Below the pieces are notes generated by a model. That model ran no database searches and was not told where the DNA came from. It saw nothing but the letters and a program-made list of their open reading frames with translations. A stretch of 64,000 bases of DNA from Lachnospiraceae bacterium (lineage in GTDB: Bacteria > Bacillota > Clostridia > Lachnospirales > Lachnospiraceae): NCBI GenBank assembly GCA_017624855.1, contig JAGAMF010000005.1:372001-436000 (forward strand). The letters run 5' to 3'. Numbering within the stretch: position 1 is the stretch's first letter; each line of letters opens with the position of its first letter. Made by a program: the position numbers and the translations under genes. Of this stretch, positions 7,938 to 54,796 are shown one piece after another.

Positions 7938-9431
7938 ATGTCAGATTTAATGAGATTGACCGGTTTAAGTTCCGGTATGGATACTGAAAGCATTGTTTCG
8001 GCATTGGTTTCCGGCAAGAAGACCAAGGTTGATGAAGCAAAGCAGGCGCAGCAGAAGTTAGAGTGGACACAGGATGCCTGGAAGGATATGAACAGCAAGA
8101 TTTACGGATTGTATTCCGGAAAGCTTTCCGCCATGAGATTCTCAACAGCATATAATAAAAAGTCCACAAAGACATCGAACAGTGCTTTGTCAGTGGTTTC
8201 GGGTGAAGGTGCTGTTAATGGTTCATATACAGCTAAGATTAATTCTCTTGCAAAGGCTGGATATCTTACCGGTGCTGAAATTTCTACCACAGACGGCGGA
8301 AAAGTAACCAAGGATACCAAGTTAACAGAGTTAGGCATTTCTGCCGGTTCTACCATTGGTATTCAGTATAAGGGTAAGACAACGCAGATTGAAATCGGCG
8401 AAGATATGACAATGGGTCAGTTTGTCAATAAATTAAAAGAAGTTGGCGTAAATGCAAGCTTCGATGAAGGCAACCAGAGACTTTTTGTCAGTGCTAAGGA
8501 AACCGGCGCCGCAAATGATTTCCTGTTTGCCGGTGGTGGCGCAAATTCTACCGATGCATTGAATAAACTTGGACTTACAGCGAAGGCAGGTTCTACCCGT
8601 ATCAAAGGTAGTGACGCTGAGTTGGTATTGAACGGAGCTACTTTTAAATCAAGTTCCAATGTGTTTACTATCAATGGTTCTACCTACACTGTAAATGCGG
8701 TTGTGGATGAAGAAATTTCCATTACTACCGAGAATGATACCAGCGGTGTCTACGGTATGGTGAAGGATTTCTTAAAAGAATACAATGATGTCATGAATGC
8801 TATGGGCAAGTCCTATAATGCAAATTCTGCTAAGGGATATGAACCTCTTACGGATGAGCAGAAGGAAGCTATGACCGAAAAGCAGATTGAAGATTGGGAA
8901 GATAAGATTAAGAATTCTCTTCTTCGTAAGGATTCAACACTGTCAGGAGTCATGAACGCTATGCGTTCGGCTATGAACCAGGGTGTGGAAATTGACGGTA
9001 AAACATATTACTTATCGGATTTTGGTATTGCAACCGGTAACTACTTTGAAGTAGATGAAAATGAGCGTTACGCATATCATATTGATGGTGATTCGGAAGA
9101 TGGACTTACTTCCGGTAAAACAGATAAGTTAAAAGCCGCAATTGCAGCCGATCCCGAATTGGTAACCAAGTTTTTCACTAAGTTGTCACAGAATCTGTAT
9201 GACAATATGACAGACAAGATGGCATCTTCCGATTATAGCAGTATCTATAAAGTATACAATGATAAGAAGATGAAGTCAGATTATGATAAGTATTCAAAAG
9301 ATATTAAAAATCTTGAGAAGAAATTATCAGAAGCGGAAGACAGATATTATAAGAAGTTTGCCGCGATGGAAAAAGCTATGGCACAGCTTAATTCCAGTGG
9401 AAATGCTATTTCAGGCTTGTTCCAGATGTAA
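7938..9431 (+). CDS. fliD: Flagellar filament cap protein FliD (HAP2)
   Basis: A 497-residue filament cap protein. The N-terminal FliD domain has the characteristic MRLTGLSSGMDTESIVSALV, and a C-terminal coiled-coil region (about 430-497, SDYDKYSKDIKNLEKKLSEA onward) ends in GNAISGLFQM as cap proteins do. The middle (about 90-350) is the variable exposed part. FliD forms the pentameric cap that helps exported flagellin fold at the filament tip. AGGAGG is well placed before the start. It lies between flaG and fliS, the classical order. A small hairpin follows the stop. Confidence 0.95.
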   Translation: MSDLMRLTGLSSGMDTESIVSALVSGKKTKVDEAKQAQQKLEWTQDAWKDMNSKIYGLYSGKLSAMRFSTAYNKKSTKTSNSALSVVSGEGAVNGSYTAKINSLAKAGYLTGAEISTTDGGKVTKDTKLTELGISAGSTIGIQYKGKTTQIEIGEDMTMGQFVNKLKEVGVNASFDEGNQRLFVSAKETGAANDFLFAGGGANSTDALNKLGLTAKAGSTRIKGSDAELVLNGATFKSSSNVFTINGSTYTVNAVVDEEISITTENDTSGVYGMVKDFLKEYNDVMNAMGKSYNANSAKGYEPLTDEQKEAMTEKQIEDWEDKIKNSLLRKDSTLSGVMNAMRSAMNQGVEIDGKTYYLSDFGIATGNYFEVDENERYAYHIDGDSEDGLTSGKTDKLKAAIAADPELVTKFFTKLSQNLYDNMTDKMASSDYSSIYKVYNDKKMKSDYDKYSKDIKNLEKKLSEAEDRYYKKFAAMEKAMAQLNSSGNAISGLFQM

Positions 9432-12559: not shown

Positions 12560-13612
12560 TTATAAACCGTATTTTTCCAGCTTTGTTTTTGCCGGCGCAT
12601 AATCTCCGCAACTAAGGAAAAAGGTGCAGGCGTTTTTTAAATCGCCCATTGCTTCATAAATTAAACCGATATGATATCGTGGGAATGTATTGGTAGTATC
12701 TTCGCGCCAGTGTTCCTTGGCAGAAATTGCTTTTAGAAATTCTAAAATTGCTTTTAGAGGTTCGTTGTTGCGAATATAGATTAAGCCCATCAAACATAAA
12801 AAATCCGCAATGTGAGCATAATCGTTGTACACTTTTTCCAATTGCAAGGCATCCTTGTAACGGTGCAGACTAAGCAGCGTTTCACCATAGGCTACCGTCA
12901 TAAGTTGAGCATAATATAAATCGGGACTTGGATTGTAGGATAAGCCTTTCTCGTAATATTGAGCGGCTGTTTCGGTCTTTCCTGCCATGGAGGCGGCTTG
13001 TCCAAGCTGGTGATAGATGTAAGGATTATCGGGCTCTTTTTTTAGTGCTTCCAATAGTAAGGTTTCGTTTCGCAATGCTTTCTTTTGGAGATTTTCAGGG
13101 GTATCGACATAACCGTCATGGTAGACAGTGATGGGAATCTCGCACCGGGCAATGGCACAACCGCGGTTGTCTCGCACCTGTTCATGGATAATGCCTTCGT
13201 AGTGGAAGTGTTTGCGGTGGAAGAAACGCTCTACCCAGTCGTCCATACAGGTGTCATCGTTATTCATTTGATTTCGACGAAGAATAACACCTACATAATG
13301 GTGGAATGTTGGTTCCATGAATTCCTGTAATTTTTGTATATCAAAATCCTCAACATATTCGTCGCAGTCCAGAACCAGAATCCAATCATGGCCGGCTTTG
13401 TCGATAGAGAAATTTCTTGCGGCGGAAAAATCGTTGCACCATTCGAAATCATAAATTTTATCTGTATATTTTAAGGCTAATTCTTTTGTTTTATCTGTGG
13501 AGCCGGTATCGATAACCACTATTTCGGCATTTAATTTGGAAGCTGCCGATAAACAACGATCAATTCTTTTTTCTTCGTTTTTGGCAATGATGCATATTGA
13601 GAAAGGCGTCAT
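12560..13612 (-). CDS. GT2 glycosyltransferase with C-terminal TPR repeats
   Basis: A 350-residue two-domain protein. The N-terminal GT2 domain (1-about 190) has FSICIIAKNEEKRIDRCLSA, IVVIDTGSTDKTKELALKYT and the metal motif LVLDCDEYVED. The C-terminal part (about 190-350) contains TPR-like repeats (IYHQLGQAASMAGKTETAAQ, YHIGLIYEAMGDLKNACTFF). Proteins of this build include the S-glycosyltransferase SunS and clostridial flagellin-linked transferases, where the helical part may hold a protein acceptor. It is convergent with flagellin and 86 bases downstream of a paralogue on the same strand. AAGGAGAA is well placed before the start. Confidence 0.88.
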   Translation of the reverse strand: MTPFSICIIAKNEEKRIDRCLSAASKLNAEIVVIDTGSTDKTKELALKYTDKIYDFEWCNDFSAARNFSIDKAGHDWILVLDCDEYVEDFDIQKLQEFMEPTFHHYVGVILRRNQMNNDDTCMDDWVERFFHRKHFHYEGIIHEQVRDNRGCAIARCEIPITVYHDGYVDTPENLQKKALRNETLLLEALKKEPDNPYIYHQLGQAASMAGKTETAAQYYEKGLSYNPSPDLYYAQLMTVAYGETLLSLHRYKDALQLEKVYNDYAHIADFLCLMGLIYIRNNEPLKAILEFLKAISAKEHWREDTTNTFPRYHIGLIYEAMGDLKNACTFFLSCGDYAPAKTKLEKYGL

Positions 13613-13698
13613 ATAATTCTCCTTGCATTTATGATATGTATTAAAAAGTCATATAGATGATGTAATTATAAACTTTGTTATGAATAAATGATAAAAAG

Positions 13699-14757
13699 CT
13701 ACTTAGTGAGTGCTTTTATTCTTGTTTGAGCAGGTTCAAAGGATTTACATTTATTATAATAATCCAGCGCTTCGCTTATGCGACCGGTACATTCATAAAT
13801 GACACCGATATTATAATACGCTCTGTAAGTGTTGCTTCCTGTTACTTTGCAGATTCTATGTTTTGTTGCGTTGATAAATTCTTGAATGGCCATATCAAAC
13901 ATGGCATTATTCATATATATCAGACCCATCAGAAAACAAAAATCTGCATTTATAGCAAATTCATTGTAAACACCTTCTAAGCCCAATGCCTCTCTATAGC
14001 GTTTGGTGTACAATAAAGCATATCCGTAAGATTCCACCATGCTTTGTACATATTCCAAACGGGGATCTAAGTCATAAGATAATGCTTTTCCGTAGGCAAG
14101 CACGGCATTTTCATAGTCTTCCATCATAAAATATGCCTGCCCCAGTTGAAACATAAAGTAGGTATCGTCAGGATTCTTTTCCAATTCTTTTAAAAGTAAA
14201 TCTATATTGCGCTTGGAGCGCTTTGCTCGGGTTTCGATATCTCCGGCATATGCCATGTGATCAAATTCTGCATTTAAGGTATAGTATGATGCGGTTTTAT
14301 CAGTATCGTTTGGTACAATTTGCTCATGAATGCTGCCTTCATAGTGATACAGCTTTTTAGAGAAGAATCGTCCCATGCCTTCACGCACTGTTCGTGTTTC
14401 ACCTTGTTGCGTATATGTATCAGTTCGATAAATCCGCCCAATCCCCCCGGGATTCTCTTTTATAGCCCGCTGATTCGCTTCTTCATCCCAAGCTGTCAGA
14501 TATTCATCGCTGTCCACCGTAAGAATGTAGTCGTTACTTGCGTGCCTGATACACTCATTTCTCGCCGCGGCAAAGTCATTACACCATTCAAAATGGTATA
14601 ATTGATCCGTGTATTTTAAAACCATTTCGCAAGTGTTGTCTGTGGAACCTGTGTCCAAAACCACAATTTCCTGTCCCAGCGACTGTAAGCGGCGCAGACA
14701 TTCTTCCAAGACGGTACATTCATTTTTGGTGATAATACAGATTGAATAAGAAACCAT
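13699..14757 (-). CDS. GT2 glycosyltransferase with C-terminal TPR repeats
   Basis: A 352-residue paralogue of the downstream reverse-strand gene. VSYSICIITKNECTVLEECL, IVVLDTGSTDNTCEMVLKYT, the FEWCNDFAAARNECI element shared by both, and the DxD-like VDSDEYLTA define the GT2 domain. TPR-like repeats occupy about 195-352 (YFMFQLGQAYFMMEDYENAV, AYYNIGVIYECTGRISEALD). The start has GGAG eight bases away. The pair probably forms one transcript, running toward flagellin. A protein-directed glycosyltransferase role, possibly on flagellin, is inferred from architecture and position only. Confidence 0.88.
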   Translation of the reverse strand: MVSYSICIITKNECTVLEECLRRLQSLGQEIVVLDTGSTDNTCEMVLKYTDQLYHFEWCNDFAAARNECIRHASNDYILTVDSDEYLTAWDEEANQRAIKENPGGIGRIYRTDTYTQQGETRTVREGMGRFFSKKLYHYEGSIHEQIVPNDTDKTASYYTLNAEFDHMAYAGDIETRAKRSKRNIDLLLKELEKNPDDTYFMFQLGQAYFMMEDYENAVLAYGKALSYDLDPRLEYVQSMVESYGYALLYTKRYREALGLEGVYNEFAINADFCFLMGLIYMNNAMFDMAIQEFINATKHRICKVTGSNTYRAYYNIGVIYECTGRISEALDYYNKCKSFEPAQTRIKALTK

Positions 14758-14842
14758 AATTTTACTCCGTATTTTATGATTGTTTGCTTAGAAATATCTT
14801 ATCATTTTCTTATAAAAAAAGGAAGAAGTAAGCGCCTATTTA

Positions 14843-14871
14843 TTGACGCAAGGGTGAAAAAAAACTATACT
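14843..14871 (+). promoter_or_regulatory. SigA-type promoter of the CgeB-like glycosyltransferase gene
   Basis: TTGACG (14843-14848), a 17-base spacer and TATACT (14866-14871) are a near-consensus vegetative promoter, 41 bases ahead of the ATG at 14913. It stands in the 155-base gap between divergent genes. Confidence 0.85.
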
Positions 14872-14912
14872 ATAAGAAGGGGAAATATGATTAGGAAAAG
14901 TAGGGGAAAGAC

Positions 14913-16118
14913 ATGAGAATATTATTTTACCGATGGGACACTTTTAACGAGGGTGTCATTGAGAAGACTTTGCGTGATTTGGGGCATTTCGTAAAGTCTG
15001 TCCGCGGAGCCGATTATTCAGATTATGATACAGAGGAGCAGATTGCGGCAATTGCCAGAGAAGTAGGGGAATATCATGCAGACATTCTTTTTAGTGTCGA
15101 TTATTTTCAGACGGTGGCAATGGCGGCCAAAAAATATGATATTTTATATTATTCGTGGTTGTATCATTTGCCGCAATGGAGTTTGTTCTCTTATGCTGCA
15201 CAGTTGCCCAATAACAGAATCATTACCTTTGATTCGGCGCAGATGCAGGAATTGAAGCAATATAATGTACATAGTGTGCAATATTTGTCTCTGGCGGCTG
15301 ACAAGGAAATACTTAGCAATGCCTTGGCGGAAGCAACGCCGGAAATAATTGAAAAATATAAGGCGGATGTTTCTTTTGTGGGAACATTGTATGAGAGTGC
15401 AAATAATCTTTTTAACCGAATCTCGCCGGAGGCCAAGGAACGAGACACCTATAAGAAACTGATTCACATGATTCGCGAGAAGCGTTTTGCTTATGGTAAA
15501 GATGTATTATATCGCGGTGTTACGGATGAAATGGTGGAGTTTTTGGCAGAAGAAGTAGAGCATGGTGCGGATCATTATTTCTTTGCCAAGCAGGAGGAGA
15601 TTGTTATTCAGTCTGTGCTTGCTCGTAAGATAACGGTGGAAGAGCGTAAAATGATGGCTCGAATCTTGGCGAGAGAATTTGATTTTAAGTTATATACCGT
15701 GTCCAATACAGATAAATTTCCGGAGATTCATAACTGTGGGCCGGTGGACTTCGTGAAGCAAGCTCCCCTTGTTTTTAACGGAAGTAAAATCAATATTTAT
15801 GTAACGCCCAGAGCGATTCGAAGCGGCGTGCCTTTGCGCGTGCTGGAAATTATGGCTTGTCAGGGATTTGTGCTGGTCAATTACCAGGAAGATATTGCGA
15901 AAGAATTTGAAGACGGCAAAGAGCTGGTTATGTATCGGAGTTTAGAAGAACTTACGGAAAAGGTTCGTTACTACTTGGAGCATGAAGAAGAACGACAGGC
16001 GATTGCCCGTGCGGGTTATGAAAAAGTTTTACGGGAATATAACTACGCGGCAAAATTAAGAAAGATTTTTGAGCAGAAGCCTTCGGGTGTAATTCAGAAT
16101 ATGAAAAATATATTTTAA
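14913..16118 (+). CDS. CgeB/DUF3880-like glycosyltransferase
   Basis: A 401-residue GT-B type protein. The N-terminal half (MRILFYRWDTFNEGVIEKTL, then DILFSVDYFQTVAMAAKKY and YDILYYSWLYHLP) resembles DUF3880, and the C-terminal half has the Glyco_trans_1_2 block (INIYVTPRAIRSGVPLRVLE, IMACQGFVLVNYQED, then EELTEKVRYYLEHEEERQAI). Relatives are spore-coat CgeB and glycosyltransferases encoded beside flagellin genes. There is no signal or membrane segment. It is transcribed alone from a SigA-type promoter. Its acceptor is not evident; flagellin or a flagellin glycan is a reasonable candidate from the context. Confidence 0.82.
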   Translation: MRILFYRWDTFNEGVIEKTLRDLGHFVKSVRGADYSDYDTEEQIAAIAREVGEYHADILFSVDYFQTVAMAAKKYDILYYSWLYHLPQWSLFSYAAQLPNNRIITFDSAQMQELKQYNVHSVQYLSLAADKEILSNALAEATPEIIEKYKADVSFVGTLYESANNLFNRISPEAKERDTYKKLIHMIREKRFAYGKDVLYRGVTDEMVEFLAEEVEHGADHYFFAKQEEIVIQSVLARKITVEERKMMARILAREFDFKLYTVSNTDKFPEIHNCGPVDFVKQAPLVFNGSKINIYVTPRAIRSGVPLRVLEIMACQGFVLVNYQEDIAKEFEDGKELVMYRSLEELTEKVRYYLEHEEERQAIARAGYEKVLREYNYAAKLRKIFEQKPSGVIQNMKNIF

Positions 16119-23890: not shown

Positions 23891-23930
23891 AAAGACAGTT
23901 TTCGGCGAAGAAAACTGTCTTTCTTGTTTT
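23891..23930 (+). terminator. Strong intrinsic terminator
   Basis: AAAGACAGTTTTC (23891-23903) and GAAAACTGTCTTT (23910-23922) form a perfect 13-base stem with a six-base loop, followed by CTTGTTTT. It ends the membrane-protein transcript, and its A-rich left flank may also serve the convergent Spo0A-like gene. Confidence 0.93.
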
Positions 23931-24493: not shown

Positions 24494-24565
24494 AAAGTGT
24501 ATTTTTATGACATTTTATAAGAATGCTATGAAAAAATGGCTAAAATTTGCTTCCGGGGTAGAGTT

Positions 24566-25312
24566 ATGCAGGAGAAAGTAAGTATTATTGTTCCGGTTTA
24601 TAATGCAGAAAATTACATAGAGCAGACCATTGACAGTGTACTGGCGCAAGACTATACCAATTGGGAATTGCTGTTGGTGGAAAATGGCTCCACGGATCAA
24701 AGCGTGGAGAAAATTAAGCAATATACCGATGAGCGAATTCGCCTGATTGTCATGGAAGGCAATGCAGGAGCCGCCAATGCCCGCAATGAGGGTATGCGTC
24801 AGGCTAATGGGACTTATGTGGGTTATGTGGATGCGGACGATTTGTGGCATTCCAATAAATTGTCCAAGCAGTTGGCATTTATGAAGGAAAAGAACGCGGG
24901 ATTTTGTTTTACAGGCTATGAGTTTGGGGATGAAAATGCCCGGGGAACCGGCAAAATTGTAAGAGTTCCGGAAACTTTGGTATATAAGCAGGCTTTATGC
25001 AATACCACGATTTTTACCTCGACTGTAATGTTTGATACAAGACTCCTTGCCAAGGACAAACTGTATATGCCCAATGTAAAAAGCGAAGATTCGGCTCTGT
25101 GGTTTCAAATCCTTCGTGACGGCGTGGTGGCTTACGGCTTGGATGAGAATCTGGTAACTTACCGCAGACCGGCCAATTCCTTGTCATCCAACAAGCTGGT
25201 GGCTATGCGAAGAATCTGGAATTTGTACCGTAAGCAGGAGAAGTTGAATGTTTTTTACAGCATGTATCTTTTCGTGGGCTGGGCTTTTCGTGCCGTAAAG
25301 CGCCGCGTTTAG
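24566..25312 (+). CDS. GT2 family glycosyltransferase
   Basis: A 248-residue GT2 enzyme: EKVSIIVPVYNAENYIEQTI, LLLVENGSTDQSVEKIKQYT, the GNAGAANARNEGMRQANGTY segment and the DxD-bearing YVDADDLWHSNK. The C-terminal stretch has RLLAKDKLYMPNVKSEDSAL, the aspartate of which is usual for the catalytic base region. The ATG at 24566 is chosen since the N-terminus then matches the family; the upstream ATG at 24536 lies in the leader. The ribosome binding site is weak (GGGGTAG). Likely cytosolic. It is the first gene after an extended -10 promoter and precedes the GtrII-like gene. Confidence 0.9.
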   Translation: MQEKVSIIVPVYNAENYIEQTIDSVLAQDYTNWELLLVENGSTDQSVEKIKQYTDERIRLIVMEGNAGAANARNEGMRQANGTYVGYVDADDLWHSNKLSKQLAFMKEKNAGFCFTGYEFGDENARGTGKIVRVPETLVYKQALCNTTIFTSTVMFDTRLLAKDKLYMPNVKSEDSALWFQILRDGVVAYGLDENLVTYRRPANSLSSNKLVAMRRIWNLYRKQEKLNVFYSMYLFVGWAFRAVKRRV

Positions 25313-25365: not shown

Positions 25366-26931
25366 GTGGAGAAAATAGTAACCGTAGATGATTTGTTTAA
25401 AAGTGCATATAAGAAGATAAAGCCTCAATGGTGGGCGGCGTTCTTTGGTTGCGTGGTGATAGGGCTTTGCACCTACATGTATTTTATGACAAGCAACTTT
25501 TTGACCTACGATTCTATGTGGAATATCTATTCTGACCAGGATATGATTACTTCCGGAAGACAGTTTCTTACTTATGCCTGCGGTATCAGTTCTTTTTATG
25601 ATTTGCCTTGGGTAAACGGCGTACTTGCCATTCTTTTTCTTGGGCTTGCGTCTGTGGTAGTTGTGGAAGGCATGGGGATTCAAAACAAGGTCGGCGCGGT
25701 TTTGGCAGCAGGACTTCTGGTGACATTTCCTGCGATTTCTTCTACTTTTTGCTATTCTTTTACAATTGATGGATATATGGTTGCAGTGTTTCTTGCGGCT
25801 CTGGCTTTTCTGCTTACAGATAGGATGAAATGGGGATTCTTGGCAGGAATTGTGTGCATGGGTGTGAGTATCGGTATTTATCAGGCTTATTTTTCTTTTA
25901 CCATTATTCTCTGCGTGTTAAGGCTTTTGACGGATTTGTTGGATGAAGACCAAATGAAAAATATTTGGAATAAAATATGGCGTTATGTGGTTATGGGCGT
26001 AGGCGGTTACATCTTTTATTATGTGACATTGAAGCTTATGCTTCGAATTAAAGGAACGGAGATTTCCGGTTATCAGGGTACAGATAAAATCGAAAGTTTT
26101 TCGATTATGGATTTGCCTCAAGGTATCGAAAGGGCCTTTGAAAGCTTCAAAGAATTTGCATTGTATGCGAATGTGCTGACGACTACCAATCTGATGAAAT
26201 TTGCTTTTGTGGCGGTTGTTATGGCGGCAGCATTGATGTATTTGATCTGTTTTGTAGAAAAGAAGCGTTATAAAAGTGTTATTCGCATTATTATGGTAAT
26301 TGTGTTGGTGGCAATTATTCCCGTGGGGGCAACCATGGTAAATGTGTTGTCGCCGGCTACTTATTTTCATTTGTTAATGAGATTGCCTTGGGCTTTACTT
26401 TTTATATATGCGGTTGTATTGGCAGAGCGAATCGGTGTTGACGGTAAGAAGTGGCAGGTTGTTGCTAAAAAGATTTTGGCTTTGGCGATAACTGTTTGTG
26501 CAGTTGTGTTGATTTGGCAGTTTGGTGTAATGGCCAATATTGTGGCTTTTAACATGAACGAAAGATACGAGAAGACATATGCCATCTGCGTTCGCATGGT
26601 AGATCGTATTGAGCAGACGGAAGGCTATACAACGGGAACCAAAGTAGCTTTGCTTGGCGGCGTTTTGGATGCAAATTACTATCCGGATACAGATATTACA
26701 AGAGAAGATTTGGTCGGATATTTCGGCGCGGACGGAACCATGTGTATCAGTGATACGGAGAAGTTTGCGGAGTTTTCCAAGCATTATTTGAATGTAACCA
26801 TTGAAACCATTCCCTTGACAGAGGAGCTGGAGTTGGCAGGTACCGAGGAATTTGCCAATATGCCAAAATTTCCGGCAGAAGGCAGCGTGCAGTTTATTGA
26901 CGGTGTACTGGTTATTAAGTGGAACGGCTAG
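25366..26931 (+). CDS. GtrII-like membrane glucosyltransferase family protein
   Basis: A 521-residue polytopic membrane protein with about ten segments, of the Glucos_trans_II (GtrII) type. A loop after the first segment has FLTYDSMWNIYSDQDMITSG and RQFLTYACGISSFYDLPW, and a soluble C-terminal part has NMNERYEKTYAICVRMVDRI. It is a clear paralogue of the protein at 46421-48040, which shares these blocks. GtrII proteins move a sugar from polyprenyl phosphate onto a surface glycan. The start is a GTG with AGGAGTG at proper spacing. Its end is 26 bases before the next gene's chosen ATG. Confidence 0.82.
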   Translation: MEKIVTVDDLFKSAYKKIKPQWWAAFFGCVVIGLCTYMYFMTSNFLTYDSMWNIYSDQDMITSGRQFLTYACGISSFYDLPWVNGVLAILFLGLASVVVVEGMGIQNKVGAVLAAGLLVTFPAISSTFCYSFTIDGYMVAVFLAALAFLLTDRMKWGFLAGIVCMGVSIGIYQAYFSFTIILCVLRLLTDLLDEDQMKNIWNKIWRYVVMGVGGYIFYYVTLKLMLRIKGTEISGYQGTDKIESFSIMDLPQGIERAFESFKEFALYANVLTTTNLMKFAFVAVVMAAALMYLICFVEKKRYKSVIRIIMVIVLVAIIPVGATMVNVLSPATYFHLLMRLPWALLFIYAVVLAERIGVDGKKWQVVAKKILALAITVCAVVLIWQFGVMANIVAFNMNERYEKTYAICVRMVDRIEQTEGYTTGTKVALLGGVLDANYYPDTDITREDLVGYFGADGTMCISDTEKFAEFSKHYLNVTIETIPLTEELELAGTEEFANMPKFPAEGSVQFIDGVLVIKWNG

Positions 26932-26957: not shown

Positions 26958-28244
26958 ATGTACGGTAAGGAAATGTATGAGTTCATAAAAAGAATATTTC
27001 CCATTTGCAGAAGCATCACCGGAAACGGTGTAAGGGAAACTTTGAGCATTATGCAGGAATATGCTCCGGAAATTAAGGTGCATGAGGTGCCCTCGGGAAC
27101 GGCGGTATTTGACTGGACGGTGCCGGCAGAGTGGAATGTTGAAGACGCTTATGTGGAGAACGAAGCAGGTGAGCGGGTGATTGATTTTAAGGAAACCAAT
27201 CTGTCCGTAGTGGGATATTCGCTTCCTATGGATGAATATCTGTCTTTGGAAGAATTAAAGAAAATTGTTTTTGTGGAAGAAAATCAGCCGGATGTCATTC
27301 CCTATGTGACTTCCTATTATCGGCAGCGTTCGGCATTCTGTACATCCAAGAATCGTCTGAATGCCTTAAAAGACGGAACTTACCATTGTGTAATTAAAAG
27401 CAGCCTGAATCCGGAAGGGTCACTTACATACGGTGAGGCACTTTTACCCGGTGAAAGTGAAAAGGAGATTTTGATATCCACTTATTTGTGCCATCCTTCC
27501 ATGGCTAACAATGAGTGTTCCGGACCGGCGGTATCCTTGTTTTTATTCAATTATATAAAAGGATTGCCCAAGCGTAAGTACAGCTATCGTTTTATCTATA
27601 TACCGGAGACCATAGGTTCCATTACTTATTTGAGCCGCAACATTGAATATTTGAAGAAGAATGTGATTTCAGGTGTTAATCTTTCCTGCGTTGGCGACAA
27701 TGATGATTATTCATTTGTACAGAGCCGTTACGGAAATACATTGACGGATCAAATGATGCACAACCTTTTATCCTTCCATTATCCGGAATATAAGGCATAT
27801 TCATTCTTGGAGAGAGGTTCGGATGAAAGACAGTTTTGTGCGCCCGGCGTTGATTTGCCGGTATGCTCTTTTTGTCGAACCAAATACGGTAAGTATGAAC
27901 AGTACCATACATCGGCGGATGATTTGGATTATATTTCGCCGGAGGGTCTTGCCGGAGCTTTGGAACTTTTAATGAAGTATGTGCAGGCGATGGAGCATAA
28001 TGAAGTGTATCGTGTTATGTGCCTTTGCGAACCCCAGTTGGGCAAGCGGGGACTTTACCCTACCGTATCCAAGAAAGGCTCTTATGATGCGGTTAAGGCT
28101 ATGACGGATTTTATCGCATATGCGGACGGTACCAATGACTTGCTTTCGATCAGTAATATAATTAAACAACCTATGGATGTGTTGATTCCCATTGCGGAGA
28201 AATTGTTGGAAAACAATCTGATTGAATGTGTGAATAAAGAATAA
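26958..28244 (+). CDS. DUF4910 (M28-aminopeptidase-like) protein
   Basis: A 428-residue protein with a DUF2172/DUF4910 build: RIFPICRSITGNGVRETLSI at the N-terminus, then the M28-like zinc peptidase core with STYLCHPSMANNECSGPAVS (His and Asn/Glu candidates), FIYIPETIGSITYL and ERGSDERQFCAPGVDLPVC, and a winged-helix-like end (DLLSISNIIKQPMDVLIPIA). The family is frequent in surface-polysaccharide loci, but its substrate is unsettled. A GTG at 26919 inside the preceding gene is possible; the ATG at 26958 has GGAG at good spacing. It is 16 bases ahead of the adenylation enzyme, so it is probably part of the same pathway, for instance removing or trimming an aminoacyl group. Confidence 0.85.
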   Translation: MYGKEMYEFIKRIFPICRSITGNGVRETLSIMQEYAPEIKVHEVPSGTAVFDWTVPAEWNVEDAYVENEAGERVIDFKETNLSVVGYSLPMDEYLSLEELKKIVFVEENQPDVIPYVTSYYRQRSAFCTSKNRLNALKDGTYHCVIKSSLNPEGSLTYGEALLPGESEKEILISTYLCHPSMANNECSGPAVSLFLFNYIKGLPKRKYSYRFIYIPETIGSITYLSRNIEYLKKNVISGVNLSCVGDNDDYSFVQSRYGNTLTDQMMHNLLSFHYPEYKAYSFLERGSDERQFCAPGVDLPVCSFCRTKYGKYEQYHTSADDLDYISPEGLAGALELLMKYVQAMEHNEVYRVMCLCEPQLGKRGLYPTVSKKGSYDAVKAMTDFIAYADGTNDLLSISNIIKQPMDVLIPIAEKLLENNLIECVNKE

Positions 28245-28260
28245 AAATGCGGAGAAGAAA

Positions 28261-29775
28261 ATGATTACATCGGTTTTAACTTATTTGGACAATGCGGCAA
28301 AACAGTATCCGGAGAAAATTGCCCTGGTTGAGTTGGAAAAGAAAATTACTTATGCGGATATGGCGCAGAGCGCCAAGGTGATTGCCACCAACCTGTTAGA
28401 TAAAGCAGGCTCCGGGCGTAGGCCTATTGTGGTGCTTATGGATAAAAGCATGGAGGCTGTGATTTCCTTCTGGGGAATTTTATACAGCGGCAATATTTAT
28501 GTGCCCATGGATGCCAATGCGCCTATGGAAAGAATCAATAAGATTGTTGATTTTGTTCAGCCGGAAGCGGTAATTATTGATGAAGGATTTGAGGATAAAA
28601 TAGACGAACTGCATGTGGAGAAGGAGATTGTTTTTAGATATGAGACATTGACGGAAGGCATGGCAGATGAAGATGAATTAAATAAAATAAAAAGGGAAAT
28701 CATTGATACAGACCCCGCTTATATTATTTGTACTTCGGGATCAACGGGTATCCCCAAAGGTGTGGTAATTTCTCATCGGGCTATCATTGATTTTACCGAA
28801 GAAGCTTCAGAAGTTATGGAGTTTACGGATCAAGAGGTTTTTGCCAATCAGGCACCTTTTTATTTCGATGCTTCCGTGCCCGATTTATACTGCACGGTGA
28901 GAAACGGTGCAACATTGCACATACTTCCGGCAAGTATGTATCGCTTCCCCATTCAGTTGCTGGAATATATAAAAGAGCATGAAGTAAATGCCATTTATTG
29001 GGTCCCTTCCGCATTGATTTTGGTGGCAAATTTAAGAGCGCTTCCTGAAGTAGATGTTACCTGCTTAAAGAAAATTATGTTCTGCGGTGAAGTTATGCCG
29101 GTAAAACAGTTGAATATGTGGCGTAAATATGTTCCGGATGCCATGTATGTAAATTATTACGGACCTTCGGAAACTACTTATGCAAGTACCTACTACATTA
29201 TTGACAGAGAATTCTCAAAAGACGAAGCACTGCCCATTGGTAAGCCTGCCTTAAATACCGGGGTATTGGTGCTTAATGACGAGGATAAGGCCGCGGGCGT
29301 AGGTGAAATCGGTGAGCTGTGTATAAAAGGCTCCGGTGTAGCGCTTGGATATTACAATAATCCCGAAAAGACTGCCGAAGTTTTTGCGCAGAATCCTTTG
29401 AACAAAATGTACCATGAAATCATTTATCGTACCGGTGACCTTGTAAAATGGAATGAACGGGGCGAGTTGGAATATGTATGCCGCAAGGATTTTCAGATTA
29501 AACATCAGGGATATCGCATCGAACTGGGCGAGATTGAGCACGGTGCCATGAGTATAAGCGGAATGAAACGCGTATGCTGCCTCTATCATGACAAACGGCA
29601 GCAGATAGTTCTGATTTACGAAGGTGATGCAGACAAAGCGGATGTAAAAGAGGTGTTAAAGACCAAGGTTCCGGAATATATGGTACCCGAAATTATTCAC
29701 CGTTTGGATGTAATGCCCATGAACGCCAATGGTAAAATTGACAGGGTGTTATTGAAGGAGCAGTATGGGAAATAA
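28261..29775 (+). CDS. Stand-alone amino acid adenylation enzyme (DltA/NRPS A-domain type)
   Basis: A 504-residue ANL-family enzyme about the length of DltA. Core motifs are present: AYIICTSGSTGIPKGVVISH (A3), FYFDASVPDLYCTV (A4, with the Asp that often binds the substrate amino group), MYVNYYGPSETTYAS (A5), IYRTGDLVKWNERGEL (A7) and NANGKIDRVLLKEQY (A10, with the catalytic Lys). It should activate a small amino acid or related acid as adenylate and load it on the carrier protein encoded two genes later. No DltB, DltC or DltD homologues accompany it, which argues against teichoic-acid D-alanylation. GGAG is correctly spaced. Confidence 0.9.
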   Translation: MITSVLTYLDNAAKQYPEKIALVELEKKITYADMAQSAKVIATNLLDKAGSGRRPIVVLMDKSMEAVISFWGILYSGNIYVPMDANAPMERINKIVDFVQPEAVIIDEGFEDKIDELHVEKEIVFRYETLTEGMADEDELNKIKREIIDTDPAYIICTSGSTGIPKGVVISHRAIIDFTEEASEVMEFTDQEVFANQAPFYFDASVPDLYCTVRNGATLHILPASMYRFPIQLLEYIKEHEVNAIYWVPSALILVANLRALPEVDVTCLKKIMFCGEVMPVKQLNMWRKYVPDAMYVNYYGPSETTYASTYYIIDREFSKDEALPIGKPALNTGVLVLNDEDKAAGVGEIGELCIKGSGVALGYYNNPEKTAEVFAQNPLNKMYHEIIYRTGDLVKWNERGELEYVCRKDFQIKHQGYRIELGEIEHGAMSISGMKRVCCLYHDKRQQIVLIYEGDADKADVKEVLKTKVPEYMVPEIIHRLDVMPMNANGKIDRVLLKEQYGK

Positions 29776-30634
29776 TTTTGTATATGAACAAATCTATATT
29801 ATAGGTTCCGGACAGTTGGCTTATGATTGTGCTTTAATCGGTAAAAAATATATAGATAATGTCAAGGTATTTGAATTAAAAGTTACCGAAAGTACTGTTT
29901 TAGAGAAGTTGTGTGAAAAAAGTCGGATTTTCTATACCACTGTAAGTACAGCCGGTCTGACTGAGTATTTAAAAAAAGAAAAGCATTCTACACTTATTGT
30001 CAGTGCGGCAAGTGTTTATCTTGTGCCTGAAGAAATTATTGGCATGGATAATTACACCATCATTAATTGGCACAATGCATTATTACCGAAGCATAAAGGA
30101 CGCAATGCGGAAGTTTGGGCAATTTATGAAGGAGATGCAGCAACGGGAGTGACCTGGCACTATATTACCGGTCAAATTGACGGAGGAGATATTTTATGTC
30201 AGGAAGAAATTGCCATAACAGAAACTACTACGGCAATGAGTTTGTATCGACAACAAATTTCTTTGGGCAAGGAAATGTTTGAATCTTTTTGCGAAAATCT
30301 GTTGCGAGGTGCATGTGGTGCTTGCAAACAGGTTGATTCGGGAGAGGAGAGCATGCACTTTTCCAAGCAAAGACCCAATGGTGGCGTTCTTGATTTGACT
30401 TGGGATATTCACAAAATTTCTGGATTTTTAAGAGCCATGGATTATGGAAGCCTGCTTTTAATGGGTAAAATGAAGATTAAACTTCAAGATAAATTTTACG
30501 AATTTTACAGATATAAAATAAAAACGGCAGAAGAAAGCATTGAACATAGAGAAGTTATTGTGGAGGAAGGCATTTTAACCATAAAAGAGAAAGATACTAT
30601 CATTATTATTAAAGGATTACAGGAGATACAGTAA
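29765..30634 (+). CDS. Formyltransferase family protein (sugar or aminoacyl N-formyltransferase)
   Basis: A 289-residue enzyme of the N10-formyltetrahydrofolate-dependent formyltransferase fold. The conserved Asn101 and His103 (TIINWHNALLPKHKGRNAEV) and Asp139 (TGQIDGGDILCQEE) form the expected catalytic set. A C-terminal region of about 100 residues differs from that of Met-tRNA formyltransferase, and such short enzymes are usually sugar N-formyltransferases. It overlaps the adenylation gene by 11 bases and has AAGGAG, so translation is coupled. The acceptor could be an amino sugar or the amino group of a carrier-bound amino acid; the sequence does not decide this. Confidence 0.88.
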   Translation: MGNNFVYEQIYIIGSGQLAYDCALIGKKYIDNVKVFELKVTESTVLEKLCEKSRIFYTTVSTAGLTEYLKKEKHSTLIVSAASVYLVPEEIIGMDNYTIINWHNALLPKHKGRNAEVWAIYEGDAATGVTWHYITGQIDGGDILCQEEIAITETTTAMSLYRQQISLGKEMFESFCENLLRGACGACKQVDSGEESMHFSKQRPNGGVLDLTWDIHKISGFLRAMDYGSLLLMGKMKIKLQDKFYEFYRYKIKTAEESIEHREVIVEEGILTIKEKDTIIIIKGLQEIQ

Positions 30635-30852
30635 TGGATGTTTTAGCAATTTTAAAAGAATTAAAGGATGATGTGGATTTTGAAATTTCAAAGGATTTCG
30701 TAGAAGACGGATTGTTGGATTCCTTTGATATTGTAAATCTTGTGGGAGAACTGGAAGATAACATGGATATCGAAATCAGCGGCCGCGATATTGTACCGGA
30801 AAATTTTGTGTCAGTGGAAGCAATTGAAAATATGTTGGAGAAGTACAAGTAA
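30634..30852 (+). CDS. Acyl/aminoacyl carrier protein
   Basis: A 72-residue carrier protein. VEDGLLDSFDIVNLVGELED holds the phosphopantetheine serine in the usual DSF(D) context, and the rest shows the acidic four-helix pattern (DIEISGRDIVPENFVSVEAI). The start overlaps the previous stop in TAATG. It is most likely the partner of the adenylation enzyme at 28261, carrying the activated acid as a thioester for transfer by the AAC(3)-like enzyme next to it. It is too separate from fatty-acid genes to be the housekeeping ACP. Confidence 0.92.
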   Translation: MDVLAILKELKDDVDFEISKDFVEDGLLDSFDIVNLVGELEDNMDIEISGRDIVPENFVSVEAIENMLEKYK

Positions 30853-30856
30853 AATT

Positions 30857-31645
30857 ATGCAAGACTATATTTCTTACGAAAACATAATGGAGCATATTGA
30901 AGGAATTCAAAAGGGTGATATTGTCTATGTGGTTTCCGATATTCTGGATTTATCCGTTAAAGCCAGAGAACATAAGGAAAGAATGGACCTGAACCGTTTT
31001 ATAGACAGTATTCTGGCAAAAGTCGGCCCGGAAGGAACGGTATTGATTCCTACTTTTCATTGGGGATTTTGCAAAGGGGAAGCATTTGATATTAAGCGAA
31101 CCGCATCCAAGACCGGTGCTTTGGGCAATGCAGCAATTAAAAGAGCAGATTTTAAAAGAACAGCTCATCCGATTTATTCTTTTATGGTATGGGGAAAGGA
31201 CCAAGAACAGCTTGTTTCTCTTGATGCAAAAGAATCTTTTGGTAAGGAGTCTGTATTTGGCTATCTTCACCGAAATGAAGCGAAGGCTTTGGTGATTGGC
31301 TTGCCAACAATGTCCGGTTTGACATTTGTGCATTATATTGAACAAATGGTGGGGGTGCCCTATCGATACAATAAGGATTTTACGGCCCCGTATATTGATG
31401 AAAACGGAGAGAAAAGCATCCGAACCTATTCCATGTATGTAAGGGATTTGGAGATGGACCCTCGTCATATAAACGGTTTTTTACCCTTGGGTGAGATGCT
31501 GGAAGAAATGGGAATTTCCGTTAATTACGAAGTGAACGGAATTCCGTTTCATGTTGTGGATTTAAATGCTATGTATCCGGTGGTGGAAGCGGATATTAAG
31601 GAAAATGATTCCCGCAACATGTATGTGTATAATCATTTGTCTTGA
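30857..31645 (+). CDS. AAC(3)-family N-acyltransferase
   Basis: A 262-residue member of the aminoglycoside 3-N-acetyltransferase (Antibiotic_NAT) family: KGDIVYVVSDILDLSVKA, VGPEGTVLIPTFHWGFCKGE, RTASKTGALGNAAIKRA, FKRTAHPIYSFMVWG and the late FLPLGEMLEEMG. Members act on amino sugars, and many are found in glycan clusters with no link to drug resistance. Beside a carrier protein it may take the acyl group from the carrier rather than from acetyl-CoA, which is inference. The start at 30857 has no strong ribosome binding site, but is four bases after the carrier stop, so it relies on coupling. The upstream ATG at 30740 lies inside the carrier gene. Confidence 0.88.
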   Translation: MQDYISYENIMEHIEGIQKGDIVYVVSDILDLSVKAREHKERMDLNRFIDSILAKVGPEGTVLIPTFHWGFCKGEAFDIKRTASKTGALGNAAIKRADFKRTAHPIYSFMVWGKDQEQLVSLDAKESFGKESVFGYLHRNEAKALVIGLPTMSGLTFVHYIEQMVGVPYRYNKDFTAPYIDENGEKSIRTYSMYVRDLEMDPRHINGFLPLGEMLEEMGISVNYEVNGIPFHVVDLNAMYPVVEADIKENDSRNMYVYNHLS

Positions 31646-40755: not shown

Positions 40756-40810
40756 CCTAAAAATAACACATGATTGAATGCGAAAAGATTTGTAAAGATG
40801 GTAGTTGGAA

Positions 40811-41890
40811 ATGAAAGACAGAATATATGTATGCCATACTTTTTATCATGTATATGTAACCATGCTGAAAGAATTGGCTTTGCCAAAAGAAAAACAGGGA
40901 AAAGCAACCTTGGTTCTCAGCAAAATGTCTAATAATTTTGAGGGAATGAAGGCTCGTATTGATAAAACCGGATATTTTGAAGCGGTAGTGGAGTTCGATG
41001 AAAAAAAAGACTCTTTTTTTCCGGAGCTTGCAAAATATAAAGAAGACAAAGGCAATATTGTCTCAAATATGCTGTCACGTATCAGGTTTACCCGCAAATT
41101 TGCAAAATTGCAGGAAGCATATATGCCGTTGGATTTTAAGGAATACAAAGATATTTATGTATATTGTGATGCAGACCCCATAGGCACATATTTAAATCAG
41201 AAACATATCCGTTACCATGCATTGGAAGACGGATTGAACAGTGTTGCGCATATAGATCATGCACATTTTGATAATCGGAGCCATTTTAAGATGAAGGCTT
41301 TTTTCTCAAAGGTGCTGAATTTAATTTTTATACAGAATGGTTATGGCAAATACTGTATCGACATGGAAGTCAATGATATTTCGGCGATTGAGATTCCGTG
41401 CAAGTATTATGTCGAAGTGAACCGTAAGGCATTAACGGACCGTTTGACGCGAGAAGATAAGGATTTATTATTGCAGATTTTTATTCGCGATATGGATGCA
41501 TTGCGCAGAAAAATGGAAGAGGGCAAGAAGTATGAAAAGAAAGTGCTGATTCTTACGGAACCTCTATGCACTATGGATGTCAGAGAACAAATTTTTAGAG
41601 ATATAATTGCCTTATATGAAAAAGAGGCACAGGTATTTATCAAGCCTCATCCCAGAGACGAATTGGATTATGCAACTATCTTTGCGGATTACCCGCAATT
41701 TGAAGGTTCAATGCCTATGGAGATGTTGAATTTCTTTGATGATTTATGCTTTGATAAGGTGATCGGCGTTTTAACGGAGTTAAAAGCCGTGACTTTTGCC
41801 AAAGAAACGGTACGCTTAGGACCGGATTTTATGGACAAGTATGAGGACCCGGCAATCCACCGGCAGAATGAGAGGATTAACAATGGCTAA
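40811..41890 (+). CDS. GT52/polysialyltransferase-like glycosyltransferase
   Basis: A 359-residue protein resembling GT52 lipooligosaccharide sialyltransferases and relatives: KDRIYVCHTFYHVYVTMLKE at the N-terminus, YIYCDADPIGTYLN-like element (VYCDADPIGTYLNQKHIRYH), and the characteristic AQVFIKPHPRDELDYATIF late in the protein, where the KPHPR(D/E) motif binds the donor nucleotide. Such enzymes use CMP-activated nonulosonic acids, which fits the PseF gene a few genes downstream. The start at 40811 has TTGGAA only, a weak site. It overlaps the PglK-like gene by eight bases. Confidence 0.72.
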   Translation: MKDRIYVCHTFYHVYVTMLKELALPKEKQGKATLVLSKMSNNFEGMKARIDKTGYFEAVVEFDEKKDSFFPELAKYKEDKGNIVSNMLSRIRFTRKFAKLQEAYMPLDFKEYKDIYVYCDADPIGTYLNQKHIRYHALEDGLNSVAHIDHAHFDNRSHFKMKAFFSKVLNLIFIQNGYGKYCIDMEVNDISAIEIPCKYYVEVNRKALTDRLTREDKDLLLQIFIRDMDALRRKMEEGKKYEKKVLILTEPLCTMDVREQIFRDIIALYEKEAQVFIKPHPRDELDYATIFADYPQFEGSMPMEMLNFFDDLCFDKVIGVLTELKAVTFAKETVRLGPDFMDKYEDPAIHRQNERINNG

Positions 41891-45728: not shown

Positions 45729-46421
45729 ATGAATGCAGTAGCAATTATTACCGCCAGAGGCGGCAGTAAAAGAATACCCAGAAAGAATGTAAAAGAGTTT
45801 CTTGGCAAGCCGATTCTTTTATATTCCATAGAGGCGGCATTAAACAGCGGTATCTTTGAAGAGGTAATGGTATCTACCGAAGATGAAGAAATTGCTGAAT
45901 TGGCGCGAAAAGCCGGAGCAACGGTGCCTTTTATGAGGGGAGAAGAAAATGCCAACGATTATGCAACCACAACGGATGTGTTATTGGAAGTGGTAGCAGA
46001 ATATGAAAAGAGAGGCAAGCATTTTGAATTCGGATGTTGTATCTATCCGACCGCACCTTTTGTTACTGCGGATAAATTAAAAGAAGGCATGGAGCGTCTG
46101 GCATCTTCCGATGCGGATACTTTGATGCCGGTGGTGCCTTTTTCGTTCCCACCTCAGAGAGGTATGGTGATTCGGGATGAGAAATTGCAGTTCATTCAAC
46201 CGGAGCATGCGCTGACCCGTTCTCAGGACTTGGAGCATTGGTATCATGATGTGGGACAGTTTTATTGTTTCCGGACAGAGAATTTTAAGAAAAACAGAAT
46301 TCTTACCGTGGGGAATGTGCTTCCTCTTGTGGTTTCGGAATTGGAAGTGCAGGATATTGATACAATTGCGGATTGGAAAATCGCCGAAATGAAATATGAA
46401 GCGATGATGGAGAAAAAATAA
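45729..46421 (+). CDS. pseF: Pseudaminic acid cytidylyltransferase
   Basis: A 230-residue CMP-nonulosonate synthetase. AVAIITARGGSKRIPRKNVK is the nucleotide-binding block, EVMVSTEDEEIAELARKAGA and PFMRGEENANDYATTTDVLL follow, and CCIYPTAPFVTADKLKEGM is closer to PseF than to NeuA or LegF. It would activate pseudaminic acid (or a near relative) with CTP. The genes making the acid itself (pseB, C, H, G, I) are not recognised in the window apart from a possible GNAT. Its stop overlaps the next start in TAATG. A GT52-like enzyme upstream may use the product. Confidence 0.9.
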   Translation: MNAVAIITARGGSKRIPRKNVKEFLGKPILLYSIEAALNSGIFEEVMVSTEDEEIAELARKAGATVPFMRGEENANDYATTTDVLLEVVAEYEKRGKHFEFGCCIYPTAPFVTADKLKEGMERLASSDADTLMPVVPFSFPPQRGMVIRDEKLQFIQPEHALTRSQDLEHWYHDVGQFYCFRTENFKKNRILTVGNVLPLVVSELEVQDIDTIADWKIAEMKYEAMMEKK

Positions 46422-51883: not shown

Positions 51884-53011
51884 ATGATTCGTTTTAATGT
51901 ACCCCCTTATACGGGAAAGGAACTGGAATATATCAAAGTTGCTGTCGAGAATCAGAAGATTTGCGGCGACGGTGAGTTTACGGCGAAGTGTAACAAATGG
52001 ATGGAGCAGAAAACAGGAACCACAAAGGCTCTTTTAACTACATCGTGTACACATGCTACGGAGCTGGCAGCAATTTTGGCAGACATTAAGCCCGGTGATG
52101 AAGTAATTATGCCGGCATATACCTTTGTGTCTACTGCGGATGCCTTTGTGTTAAGAGGCGCTACTGCGGTATTTGTGGATATCCGTCCCGACACCATGAA
52201 TATGGACGCTGACTTAATCGAAGCGGCAATTACAGATAAAACCAGAGCCATTGTTCCTGTACATTATGCAGGTGTATCCTGTGATATGGACAAAATAATG
52301 GAGATTGCAGAGAAATATAATCTTGCGGTAATCGAAGATGCTGCTCAGGGGATCATGTCTACATACAAGGGTAAGGCACTGGGTACCATCGGCGACTACG
52401 GTTGTTTCAGTTTCCATGAGACCAAGAACTTCTCCATGGGTGAAGGCGGTGCATTGCTCATACGCGATGTGGATAATGTGGAGAATGCAGAAATTATCCG
52501 CGAAAAGGGTACCAACCGTGCCAAGTTCTTCCGTGGACAGATTGATAAATATACCTGGGTAGAAAAGGGTTCTTCTTATCTTCCCAGTGAAATGAACGCG
52601 GCATATCTTTATGCGCAGCTTGAACTGGCTGAGGAAATTACCGCAGACAGAATGGCTACTTGGAATCGCTACAATGAGGCTTTTAAAGAACTTGCAGAAG
52701 CCGGCAAGGTAGAACTTCCTTTTATTCCGGAAGAATGTACCCATAATGCTCACATGTTTTATTTAAAGTGTAAGGATTTGGAAGAGAGAACTGCACTAAT
52801 CAGCTTTTTAAAAGAAAACGATATTCTTGCGGTATTCCATTATGTACCTTTACACACGGCGCCGGCAGGCTTGAAATACGGTCGTTTCCACGGAGAAGAC
52901 AAATATACCACCAAGGAAAGTGAGCGTTTGGTAAGATTGCCTCTTTACTACGGTTTGGAGCCGGAAAAGACAGATTATATTATTGAGAAGGTAAAAGAAT
53001 TTTACAAGTAA
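51884..53011 (+). CDS. wecE: dTDP-4-amino-4,6-dideoxygalactose transaminase
   Basis: A 375-residue DegT-family aminotransferase matching WecE/RffA closely: IRFNVPPYTGKELEYIKVAV, LLTTSCTHATELAAILADIK, VIMPAYTFVSTADAFVLRGA, VIEDAAQGIMSTYKGKALG (Asp152) and FSFHETKNFSMGEGGALLI with PLP lysine Lys181. It converts dTDP-4-keto-6-deoxyglucose to dTDP-Fuc4N with glutamate. The rmlD gene shows that the cell also makes this keto intermediate for rhamnose. GATGGAGG precedes the ATG. A GNAT acetyltransferase two genes on could give Fuc4NAc. Confidence 0.92.
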   Translation: MIRFNVPPYTGKELEYIKVAVENQKICGDGEFTAKCNKWMEQKTGTTKALLTTSCTHATELAAILADIKPGDEVIMPAYTFVSTADAFVLRGATAVFVDIRPDTMNMDADLIEAAITDKTRAIVPVHYAGVSCDMDKIMEIAEKYNLAVIEDAAQGIMSTYKGKALGTIGDYGCFSFHETKNFSMGEGGALLIRDVDNVENAEIIREKGTNRAKFFRGQIDKYTWVEKGSSYLPSEMNAAYLYAQLELAEEITADRMATWNRYNEAFKELAEAGKVELPFIPEECTHNAHMFYLKCKDLEERTALISFLKENDILAVFHYVPLHTAPAGLKYGRFHGEDKYTTKESERLVRLPLYYGLEPEKTDYIIEKVKEFYK

Positions 53012-54774: not shown

Positions 54775-54796
54775 ACAAATTAAGGAAGTGGTTATT

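Follow-up and report, generated by a model that had tools for sequence, protein, structure and literature searches.

A five-gene set that may supply amino sugars with N-formyl-aminoacyl groups from a carrier protein in a Lachnospiraceae genome

Layout and recurrence of the five-gene set

The Lachnospiraceae bacterium assembly GCA_017624855.1 (1.95 Mb, 74.5% complete) carries, in a 64,000-nucleotide stretch of contig JAGAMF010000005.1 (positions 372,001 to 436,000; hereafter the window), five genes that we consider to be probably a cassette for the cytosolic acylation of amino sugars, with a carrier-bound N-formyl-aminoacyl group as the donor. The five open reading frames are intact, lie on the + strand and are separated by +16, -11, -1 and +4 bp. 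They encode, in order, a DUF4910/DUF2172/HTH_47 protein of the CA_C2195/Cj1295 family (26958-28244; PF16254, 337.9 bits, cut-off 26.6), a free-standing DltA-like adenylation (A) enzyme with the pocket code DAPWMCYYAK (28261-29775; PF00501, 235.9 bits), a formyltransferase (29765-30634; PF00551, Formyl_trans_N, 73.2 bits), a carrier protein with an LLDSF phosphopantetheine serine (30634-30852; PF00550, PP-binding, 21.1 bits) and an AAC(3)-fold acyltransferase, referred to below as AAC3 (30857-31645; PF02522, Antibiotic_NAT, 101 bits). All five assignments exceeded the Pfam cut-off, the carrier weakly (21.1 vs 20.8 bits), while in NCBIfam the carrier, the formyltransferase and AAC3 stayed under every cut-off and the DUF4910 protein had no match. 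The alignments showed that the core residues were kept, namely LLDSF in the carrier, N-x-H...D in the formyltransferase and H-x-x-E in AAC3, which we take to have their customary roles, and purine-rich stretches resembling ribosome sites precede the starts of the first four genes. A preliminary description of this DNA, made from its letters, had claimed intact motifs in all five genes, overlaps or gaps of -11, -1 and +4 bases and a single coupled unit; all of this held, with the first gap of +16 bp added. Given that the combination recurs in other genomes, the set appears to be more than chance, and the unit and its recurrence are well supported by sequence.

The same five families were found in the same order in one Acetatifactor genome, across a contig break, and only partly in two more genomes. 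In Acetatifactor sp. (G583, locus L046), the run of DUF4910, A enzyme and formyltransferase genes stops 68 bp short of the end of one contig, and a second contig opens with the carrier and AAC3 genes followed by a GT52-family gene; the order in this genome is deduced, because the two contigs were not joined. Genome G584 (L047) carries the A enzyme, formyltransferase, carrier and AAC3 genes after a 35-residue DUF4910 remnant, with a longer DUF4910 elsewhere. In Acetatifactor muris (G585, L092), DUF4910 is whole, the A enzyme and formyltransferase genes are broken, no carrier or AAC3 gene was found at the DUF4910 locus, and on another contig a DUF4910 tail comes after a more distant homologue of AAC3. 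The five-gene set is thus real but rare, and it is decayed in two of its three relatives. The question whether such sets always sit in glycan loci received a mixed answer: the GT52 gene follows AAC3 in G583, but the tested upstream genes there were FtsH-, amylase- and phosphoesterase-like, and the tested neighbours in L047 encode rubrerythrin, an acyltransferase-alanine racemase fusion and an M29-like protein.

Association of the formyltransferase with amino acid loading

The neighbourhood of the formyltransferase was surveyed in a wide scan over one genome per species. The query was an alignment, A3, of the window protein and four others, three of these four encoded next to an A enzyme (L020 and L022, not A-adjacent, were left out), and it gave 52 loci, four of which come from contigs that supplied A3. 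An A enzyme was fused to the formyltransferase, or encoded on its strand no more than 400 bp away, in 41 of the 52 loci, a share inflated because the query was biased to A-adjacent members; a carrier was found in 29 and both in 27. The gene order A-formyltransferase-carrier was seen in 23 loci and two fused ones (25/52), and A-carrier-formyltransferase in two. The fusions, in L060 and L063, join A and formyltransferase domains, both confirmed, and have no carrier domain. Within 3 kb, the 41 A-linked loci held MBOAT genes in 20 cases and AAC3 in three; an amidotransferase-like gene was present in 13 and a PglD-like gene within 4 kb in three, and a DegT-type sugar aminotransferase was seen in four, as judged with one query in the locus DNA examined.

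In five of the 11 loci without an adjacent A enzyme (L055, L071, L075, L079 and L080), a class-II tRNA-synthetase-like gene overlaps the formyltransferase gene or lies at most 21 bp from it, and for the only such protein tested, that of L055, the best PDB match was an amino acid--[acyl-carrier-protein] ligase (1.7e-25). Of the remaining six loci, L048 begins close to the edge of its contig, L074 stands alone, L067 has an A enzyme about 4 kb upstream of the formyltransferase, and L061, L066 and L097, which are closely related, have an MBOAT gene and no A enzyme seen in the locus DNA. The A-enzyme adjacency, together with an unrelated ligase-like loader in five loci, suggests that the formyltransferase follows carrier loading and not amino-sugar synthesis; two unrelated loaders in one slot and two fusions are the strongest sign that the aminoacyl-carrier is its substrate. 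Its link with amino acid loading is well supported by sequence. The proposal that an amino acid is activated on a carrier, N-formylated and transferred to an amino sugar gains support from this context, and the position of the formyl group, left open earlier, would be on the carrier-bound aminoacyl group.

A formyltransferase tree of 52 rows, for which only the portion beyond residue 500 of the two fused proteins was used and the broken L092 was left out by a length filter, grouped the window, L046 and L047 (support 100/96). A single clade of AAC(3)-linked formyltransferases was rejected, as the well-supported branches force at least three changes. A strict class-level search (E ≤ 1e-40), with the source genome included, recovered the formyltransferase in 2/391 genomes and AAC3 in 3/391, and the triad-bearing records are labelled Bacillota, Bacteroidota and Chloroflexota, many of them metagenome-assembled. 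Cultured species that carry the triad include Anaerosacchariphilus polymeriproducens and Paenibacillus nanensis.

Several neighbours of related formyltransferases were recorded beside these counts. Seven of the 52 loci (L050, L051, L058, L070, L073, L076 and L095) have an unbroken cassette of amidotransferase (PseA/WbuX-like), A enzyme, formyltransferase, carrier and MBOAT, the amidotransferase model being under its cut-off in L076 (165.4 vs 203.2); as a guess, this neighbour might convert the formyl group to formamidine. A KASIII-like gene after the carrier in L085 (8440-12152, by Pfam) and L048 (278-2478, by reading) hints at chain extension of the formyl-aminoacyl group. MBOAT genes and carriers both occur twice in L057 and in L064, which suggests that two acyl groups are exported in parallel there. 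In Campylobacter coli, lgrA (formyl transferase domain) and 3-oxoacyl-ACP synthase are listed with Cj1295 among the core phase-variable genes (PMC6321876, Table 1), and this lgrA is a possible Campylobacter counterpart.

The A enzyme exceeded the cut-off of the amino-acid adenylation domain model TIGR01733; the DltA models came next, below theirs, with the equivalog TIGR01734 at 314.8 vs a cut-off of 559.85. With pocket positions placed by eye after GrsA, its code DAPWMCYYAK is identical in L046 and L047 and close to that of L040 (DAPWICMYAK). The code table was limited to A enzymes of more than 430 residues (thus without the broken L092) and matches at least as strong as 1e-100, with L017, L018, L019, L021 and L044 dropped as duplicates of L061, L059, L076, L093 and L022. 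The first code residue was Asp in all 41 formyltransferase-linked A enzymes (the window and 40 loci) and likewise in 10 of the 11 unlinked ones, and this residue was hence rejected as a discriminator of formyltransferase linkage. Of the 41 linked enzymes, 26 share the code DVKWMSLCNK, and for 18 of these the locus DNA examined includes an MBOAT gene, suggesting one dominant amino acid in those loci. The D-alanine-specific DltA and the glycine-specific AlmE each depend on a pocket Cys (PMC11253843), and because the Cys of the window enzyme was placed at that position, we would weakly guess glycine or D-alanine as its substrate. In L047, the acyltransferase-alanine racemase fusion (13135-15144, - strand) lies about 1.2 kb from AAC3 with the rubrerythrin gene between; a D-amino acid source close by would agree with a D-alanine substrate, although this gene is on the opposite strand.

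The carrier is a protein of 72 residues that did not reach the DltC model NF003464 (30.9 vs cut-off 68). The DS motif was present in 47/47 aligned carrier rows, and H-x-x-E in 16/16 aligned AAC3 rows, in an alignment from which L017, L018, L019, L021, L044 and carriers weaker than 1e-15 were dropped.

The AAC3-DUF4910 pair and its sugar context

AAC3 belongs to the fold family PF02522 and falls short of the AAC(3) equivalog NF033082 (38.2 vs 270). A search with this protein recovered 12 of 200 family genomes at E ≤ 1e-15, the source genome included. The 11 other loci (13-20 kb each) contained an A-enzyme-like gene in nine cases, a DUF4910 gene in six, a formyltransferase-like gene in two (L042 and L044), and neither an A-enzyme-like nor a DUF4910 gene in two (L036 and L037). 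AAC3 adjoins DUF4910 in L039, L040, L106 and L107 and is fused to it in L038. L106 also encodes PseI and an FkbH-domain protein, both above cut-off, while L107 has a flagellin gene and a protein under the cut-off of the FkbH N-terminal model (25.2 vs 27); no A enzyme was seen in the locus DNA of either, and the FkbH donor in such loci is presumably of the glyceryl type. In L067, the genes for PseB (above cut-off), formyltransferase, carrier, AAC3, DUF4910 and an aminotransferase form a single run. These gene neighbourhoods give good support for linking AAC3 with DUF4910 and with pseudaminic acid or flagellin loci. The two proteins look like a constant half that installs the acyl group and can be combined with different donor halves, which look to be glyceryl, aminoacyl (L035, L039 and L040) or formyl-aminoacyl (the window, Acetatifactor and L067).

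The preliminary description had called the DUF4910 protein M28-like and given it a peptidase-like trimming or proofreading part. Its DUF4910, DUF2172 and HTH_47 domains scored 337.9, 107.7 and 83.2 bits, all above cut-off, the Pfam M28 model just passed (23.4 vs 21.3), and 3k9t was the only PDB match at E ≤ 0.001. The M28 catalytic Asp and Glu are replaced by Ser and Pro, as in 3k9t, when the PDB alignment is mapped via PMC4000134. M28-like is therefore apt for the fold family but not for a peptidase, a role that we rejected because the catalytic pair is absent. That paper describes the family as lacking the M28 pair and suggests transacylation or deacylation of an amino sugar (PMC4000134). 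Trimming or proofreading found no support either, given the link of Cj1295 to pseudaminic acid. Cj1295 is described as a DUF2172-domain, putative M28-family protein (PMC6321876) that is needed for 5-(2,3-di-O-methylglyceroyl)amino pseudaminic acid on the flagellin of Campylobacter jejuni, and Hitchen et al. propose Cj1295-linked removal of the acetyl at C5 (PMC3068675). The reported ion shift of 317 to 391 fits, by our own arithmetic, the replacement of acetyl by dimethylglyceroyl. We propose that the DUF4910 protein is a sugar N-deacylase or a transacylation partner of AAC3.

A family 2 glycosyltransferase gene, possibly the first of the directon (24536-25312, +; PF00535, 128.3 bits), and a GtrII-type glycosyltransferase gene (25366-26931, +; PF14264, 165.9 bits) precede the set in the same direction. 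The intervals are 53 and 26 bp long, and the directon may therefore comprise seven genes; the next gene on the 3' side, 134 bp on, encodes a sugar-phosphate transferase. Upstream, a terminator-like stem (23891-23922) and a promoter-like site (24465) were noted, both kinds of match at chance level; these calls were rejected, as the scan matched no better than shuffled sequence of the region. The window further encodes the pseudaminic acid cytidylyltransferase PseF (45729-46421, +; TIGR03584, 294.6 vs 205.7) and a marginal PseH-like N-acetyltransferase (54788-55342, +; TIGR03585, 93.7 vs 93.1), and some 44-49 kb past its end (L101) come PseC and PseG, above cut-off, and a member of the NeuB family, which together make it likely that pseudaminic acid is made here. 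A rival source of acceptor sugar is a WecE-type dTDP-4-amino-4,6-dideoxygalactose transaminase (51884-53011, +; NF008687, 645.5 vs 375). There is also a GT52-family gene (40805-41890), and on the - strand two family 2 glycosyltransferase-TPR proteins (12560-14757) are encoded near fliD (7938-9431); proteins of this kind are proposed as flagellin glycosyltransferases (PMC13317340).

The preliminary description had also stressed that no Dlt partner genes accompany the set. Locally this is right, as DltB (MBOAT) and DltD are absent from it and its tested flanks are the glycosyltransferase and sugar-phosphate transferase genes, but the same genome has a separate A enzyme-carrier-MBOAT-DltD-like set beside an amino acid racemase (L009), in which the DltD-like protein had no family match and is so named from its gene place. 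The genome encodes two close paralogues of the window A enzyme (46 and 43% identity), one in L009 and one in another locus, L008. The latter, 1.4 kb past the right window end, holds its A enzyme, a carrier, a LegC-like aminotransferase (372.9 vs 420) and a NeuD/PglD-type acyltransferase (156.8 vs 160.8). Together with the window set, L008 and L009 give one genome three carrier-based acylation sets with different ends. In L008 (7316-10935), the first code residue of the A enzyme is Ser, not Asp, and the carrier is DltC-like, perhaps marking a carrier-fed acyltransferase that uses an acid without an alpha-amine; in L009 (8060-13293, contig C13), the racemase passes the cysteate racemase cut-off (203.8 vs 190) and the A-enzyme code is DAKWAGLGMK, with an acidic D-amino acid ester conceivable.

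Proposed pathway, alternatives and meaning

For the pathway as a whole, we infer each reaction, the amino acid and the sugar from sequence. The A enzyme, whose class is given by its family, would adenylate a small amino acid and load it onto the carrier. The formyltransferase, judging from gene order, the fusions and the loader replacement, would then N-formylate the aminoacyl-S-carrier with formyl-tetrahydrofolate as donor to give N-formyl-aminoacyl-S-carrier. The three proteins would in this way act like the F-A-T initiation module of linear gramicidin synthetase, dispersed over separate genes. AAC3, by its fold and context, may transfer the N-formyl-aminoacyl group to the amine of a nucleotide-linked amino sugar, and the DUF4910 protein may act on the same amide, most likely removing the N-acetyl so that the new acyl replaces it, as proposed for Cj1295. 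The acceptor would most likely be a pseudaminic acid precursor, in view of the PseF and PseH-like genes of the window and of PseC, PseG and a NeuB-family gene downstream; dTDP-Fuc4N is the other candidate. The decorated sugar, which would belong to a surface or flagellar glycan, may be put in place by the two glycosyltransferases encoded upstream.

Several observations, besides the query bias given above, weigh against this pathway. An unbiased search with the window formyltransferase alone recovered 7/200 family genomes at E ≤ 1e-20, its own included, and an A enzyme was adjacent in only three of the six others (L018, L019 and L021); L017 has MBOAT and DltD-like genes with no A enzyme seen, L022 has AAC3, A enzyme and carrier about 7 kb away, and in L020 a carrier-ligase-like gene overlaps the formyltransferase. 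The closest PDB relative of the formyltransferase is GDP-4-amino-4,6-dideoxymannose formyltransferase (76 bits, profile 111), ahead of the LgrA F domain (about 60 bits, profile 70), which keeps a sugar substrate in play, while the sugar formyltransferase equivalogs were far from reached (ArnA model 73.1 vs 777; PRK07579 37.6 vs 238). DUF4910-AAC3-A enzyme-carrier sets with no formyltransferase in the locus DNA (L035, L039 and L040) suggest that formylation is optional, and no amino-sugar aminotransferase lies inside the directon. The third zinc ligand of 3k9t, an Asp, is Asn in 10/10 aligned DUF4910 sequences, which weakens the amidase idea. This Asn is also present in L106 and L119, with Asp in L107, and it was rejected as a mark of formyl sets since L106 is an FkbH-type locus. 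A figure legend states that Cj1296-Cj1310 are not involved in flagellar glycosylation (PMC13317340).

The kinship to sugar formyltransferases, the capacity of the window locus to make amino sugars and the A enzyme-carrier-AAC3 sets without formylation would all suit an unlikely alternative, in which the formyltransferase formylates a sugar amine (cf. WlaRD, VioF) and a second amine receives an unmodified aminoacyl group from the A enzyme, carrier and AAC3. Against it, the formyltransferase tracks the amino acid loader, with two fusions and with an unrelated loader in five loci, and of the 41 A-linked loci 20 have an MBOAT gene at most 3 kb away, while a sugar aminotransferase was seen in the locus DNA of four. 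A Dlt- or Alm-like aminoacylation of a polymer, with the formyl group as a capping or proofreading step, seems improbable: the A enzyme and carrier are DltA/DltC-like and sister sets end in MBOAT, some with DltD-like proteins, but the directon has neither an MBOAT nor a DltD-like gene, the DltA and DltC equivalog cut-offs were not reached, and L009 already provides a separate Dlt-like set. We give as little credit to a small secreted N-formyl-aminoacyl metabolite, unrelated to glycans and merely parked in a glycan locus. The tested L047 neighbours, which are not glycan genes, and the KASIII-like and AMP-binding genes of formyltransferase locus L055 would fit it; the AAC3-DUF4910 pairs in pseudaminic acid or flagellin loci (L067, L106 and L107), the GT52 gene after the set in G583 and the action of Cj1295 on a flagellin glycan argue against it.

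The carrier-bound donor pathway combines features of several known systems. The F-A-T initiation module of LgrA formylates a carrier-bound amino acid; there too formyltransferase, A and carrier are encoded together (in A-formyltransferase-carrier order in the window), but the window has three separate genes instead of one synthetase, its product would go to a glycan and not a peptide, and its formyltransferase has a sugar formyltransferase as closest PDB relative. DltABCD shares the families of the free-standing A enzyme and small carrier and differs in its end transferase, which is AAC(3)-like in the window and not MBOAT/DltD, and in the added formyltransferase. The AlmEFG system for lipid A glycylation in Vibrio cholerae (PMC11253843), with AlmF and AlmG in their familiar roles, has a different acyltransferase and no formylation. 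By description rather than sequence, it is alike in that a free-standing A enzyme and carrier feed a surface-sugar acyltransferase. Likewise by description and not by alignment, the Cj1295 system has a protein of the same family as the window DUF4910 protein that changes the pseudaminic N-acyl and adjoins pseudaminic synthesis genes (PMC3068675, PMC6321876); its acyl is di-O-methylglyceroyl, and the parts of these sources consulted report no A enzyme-formyltransferase pair for it. CA_C2195 (3k9t) of Clostridium acetobutylicum, for which a non-peptidase sugar-modification role is proposed, has as gene neighbours a carrier, an acetyltransferase+HAD protein and an aminosugar N-acetyltransferase; in contrast, the neighbour table in the part consulted has an ATP-grasp amino acyl ligase and no A enzyme or formyltransferase (PMC4000134), and its third zinc ligand is Asp where the window protein has Asn.

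The families are thus ordinary and their union is unusual: the set would work like Dlt/Alm loading mixed with LgrA formylation, and it is a member of neither by the tests made. We see about an even chance that the set belongs to a scattered class of surface decoration in which free-standing loader-formyltransferase-carrier triads feed N-formyl-aminoacyl groups to interchangeable transferases, the window set being the amino-sugar branch with a DUF4910 acyl-exchange partner. If so, the MBOAT enzymes would esterify exported polymers and the AAC(3)- and PglD-like ones would acylate amino sugars. Searches of the open-access literature (PMC; titles and abstract openings) for formylated amino acids in glycans or for formyltransferase-adenylation sets, with subscription papers and preprints outside their scope, yielded no description of such a triad, and the genes for such decoration chemistry seem not to have been described before. 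An N-formyl-L-alanyl group has been reported in the O2 polysaccharide of Vibrio anguillarum. If the proposal is true, it would name genes for the N-formyl-aminoacyl glycan substituent, a type reported chemically, and offer DUF4910, annotated as a domain of unknown function, a role that can be tested. The F-A-T logic would then occur not only within peptide synthetases but also, taken apart into single proteins, in surface chemistry. The formyl-peptide receptors of animals recognise N-formyl groups, and given these receptors, such a decoration could matter in gut commensals.

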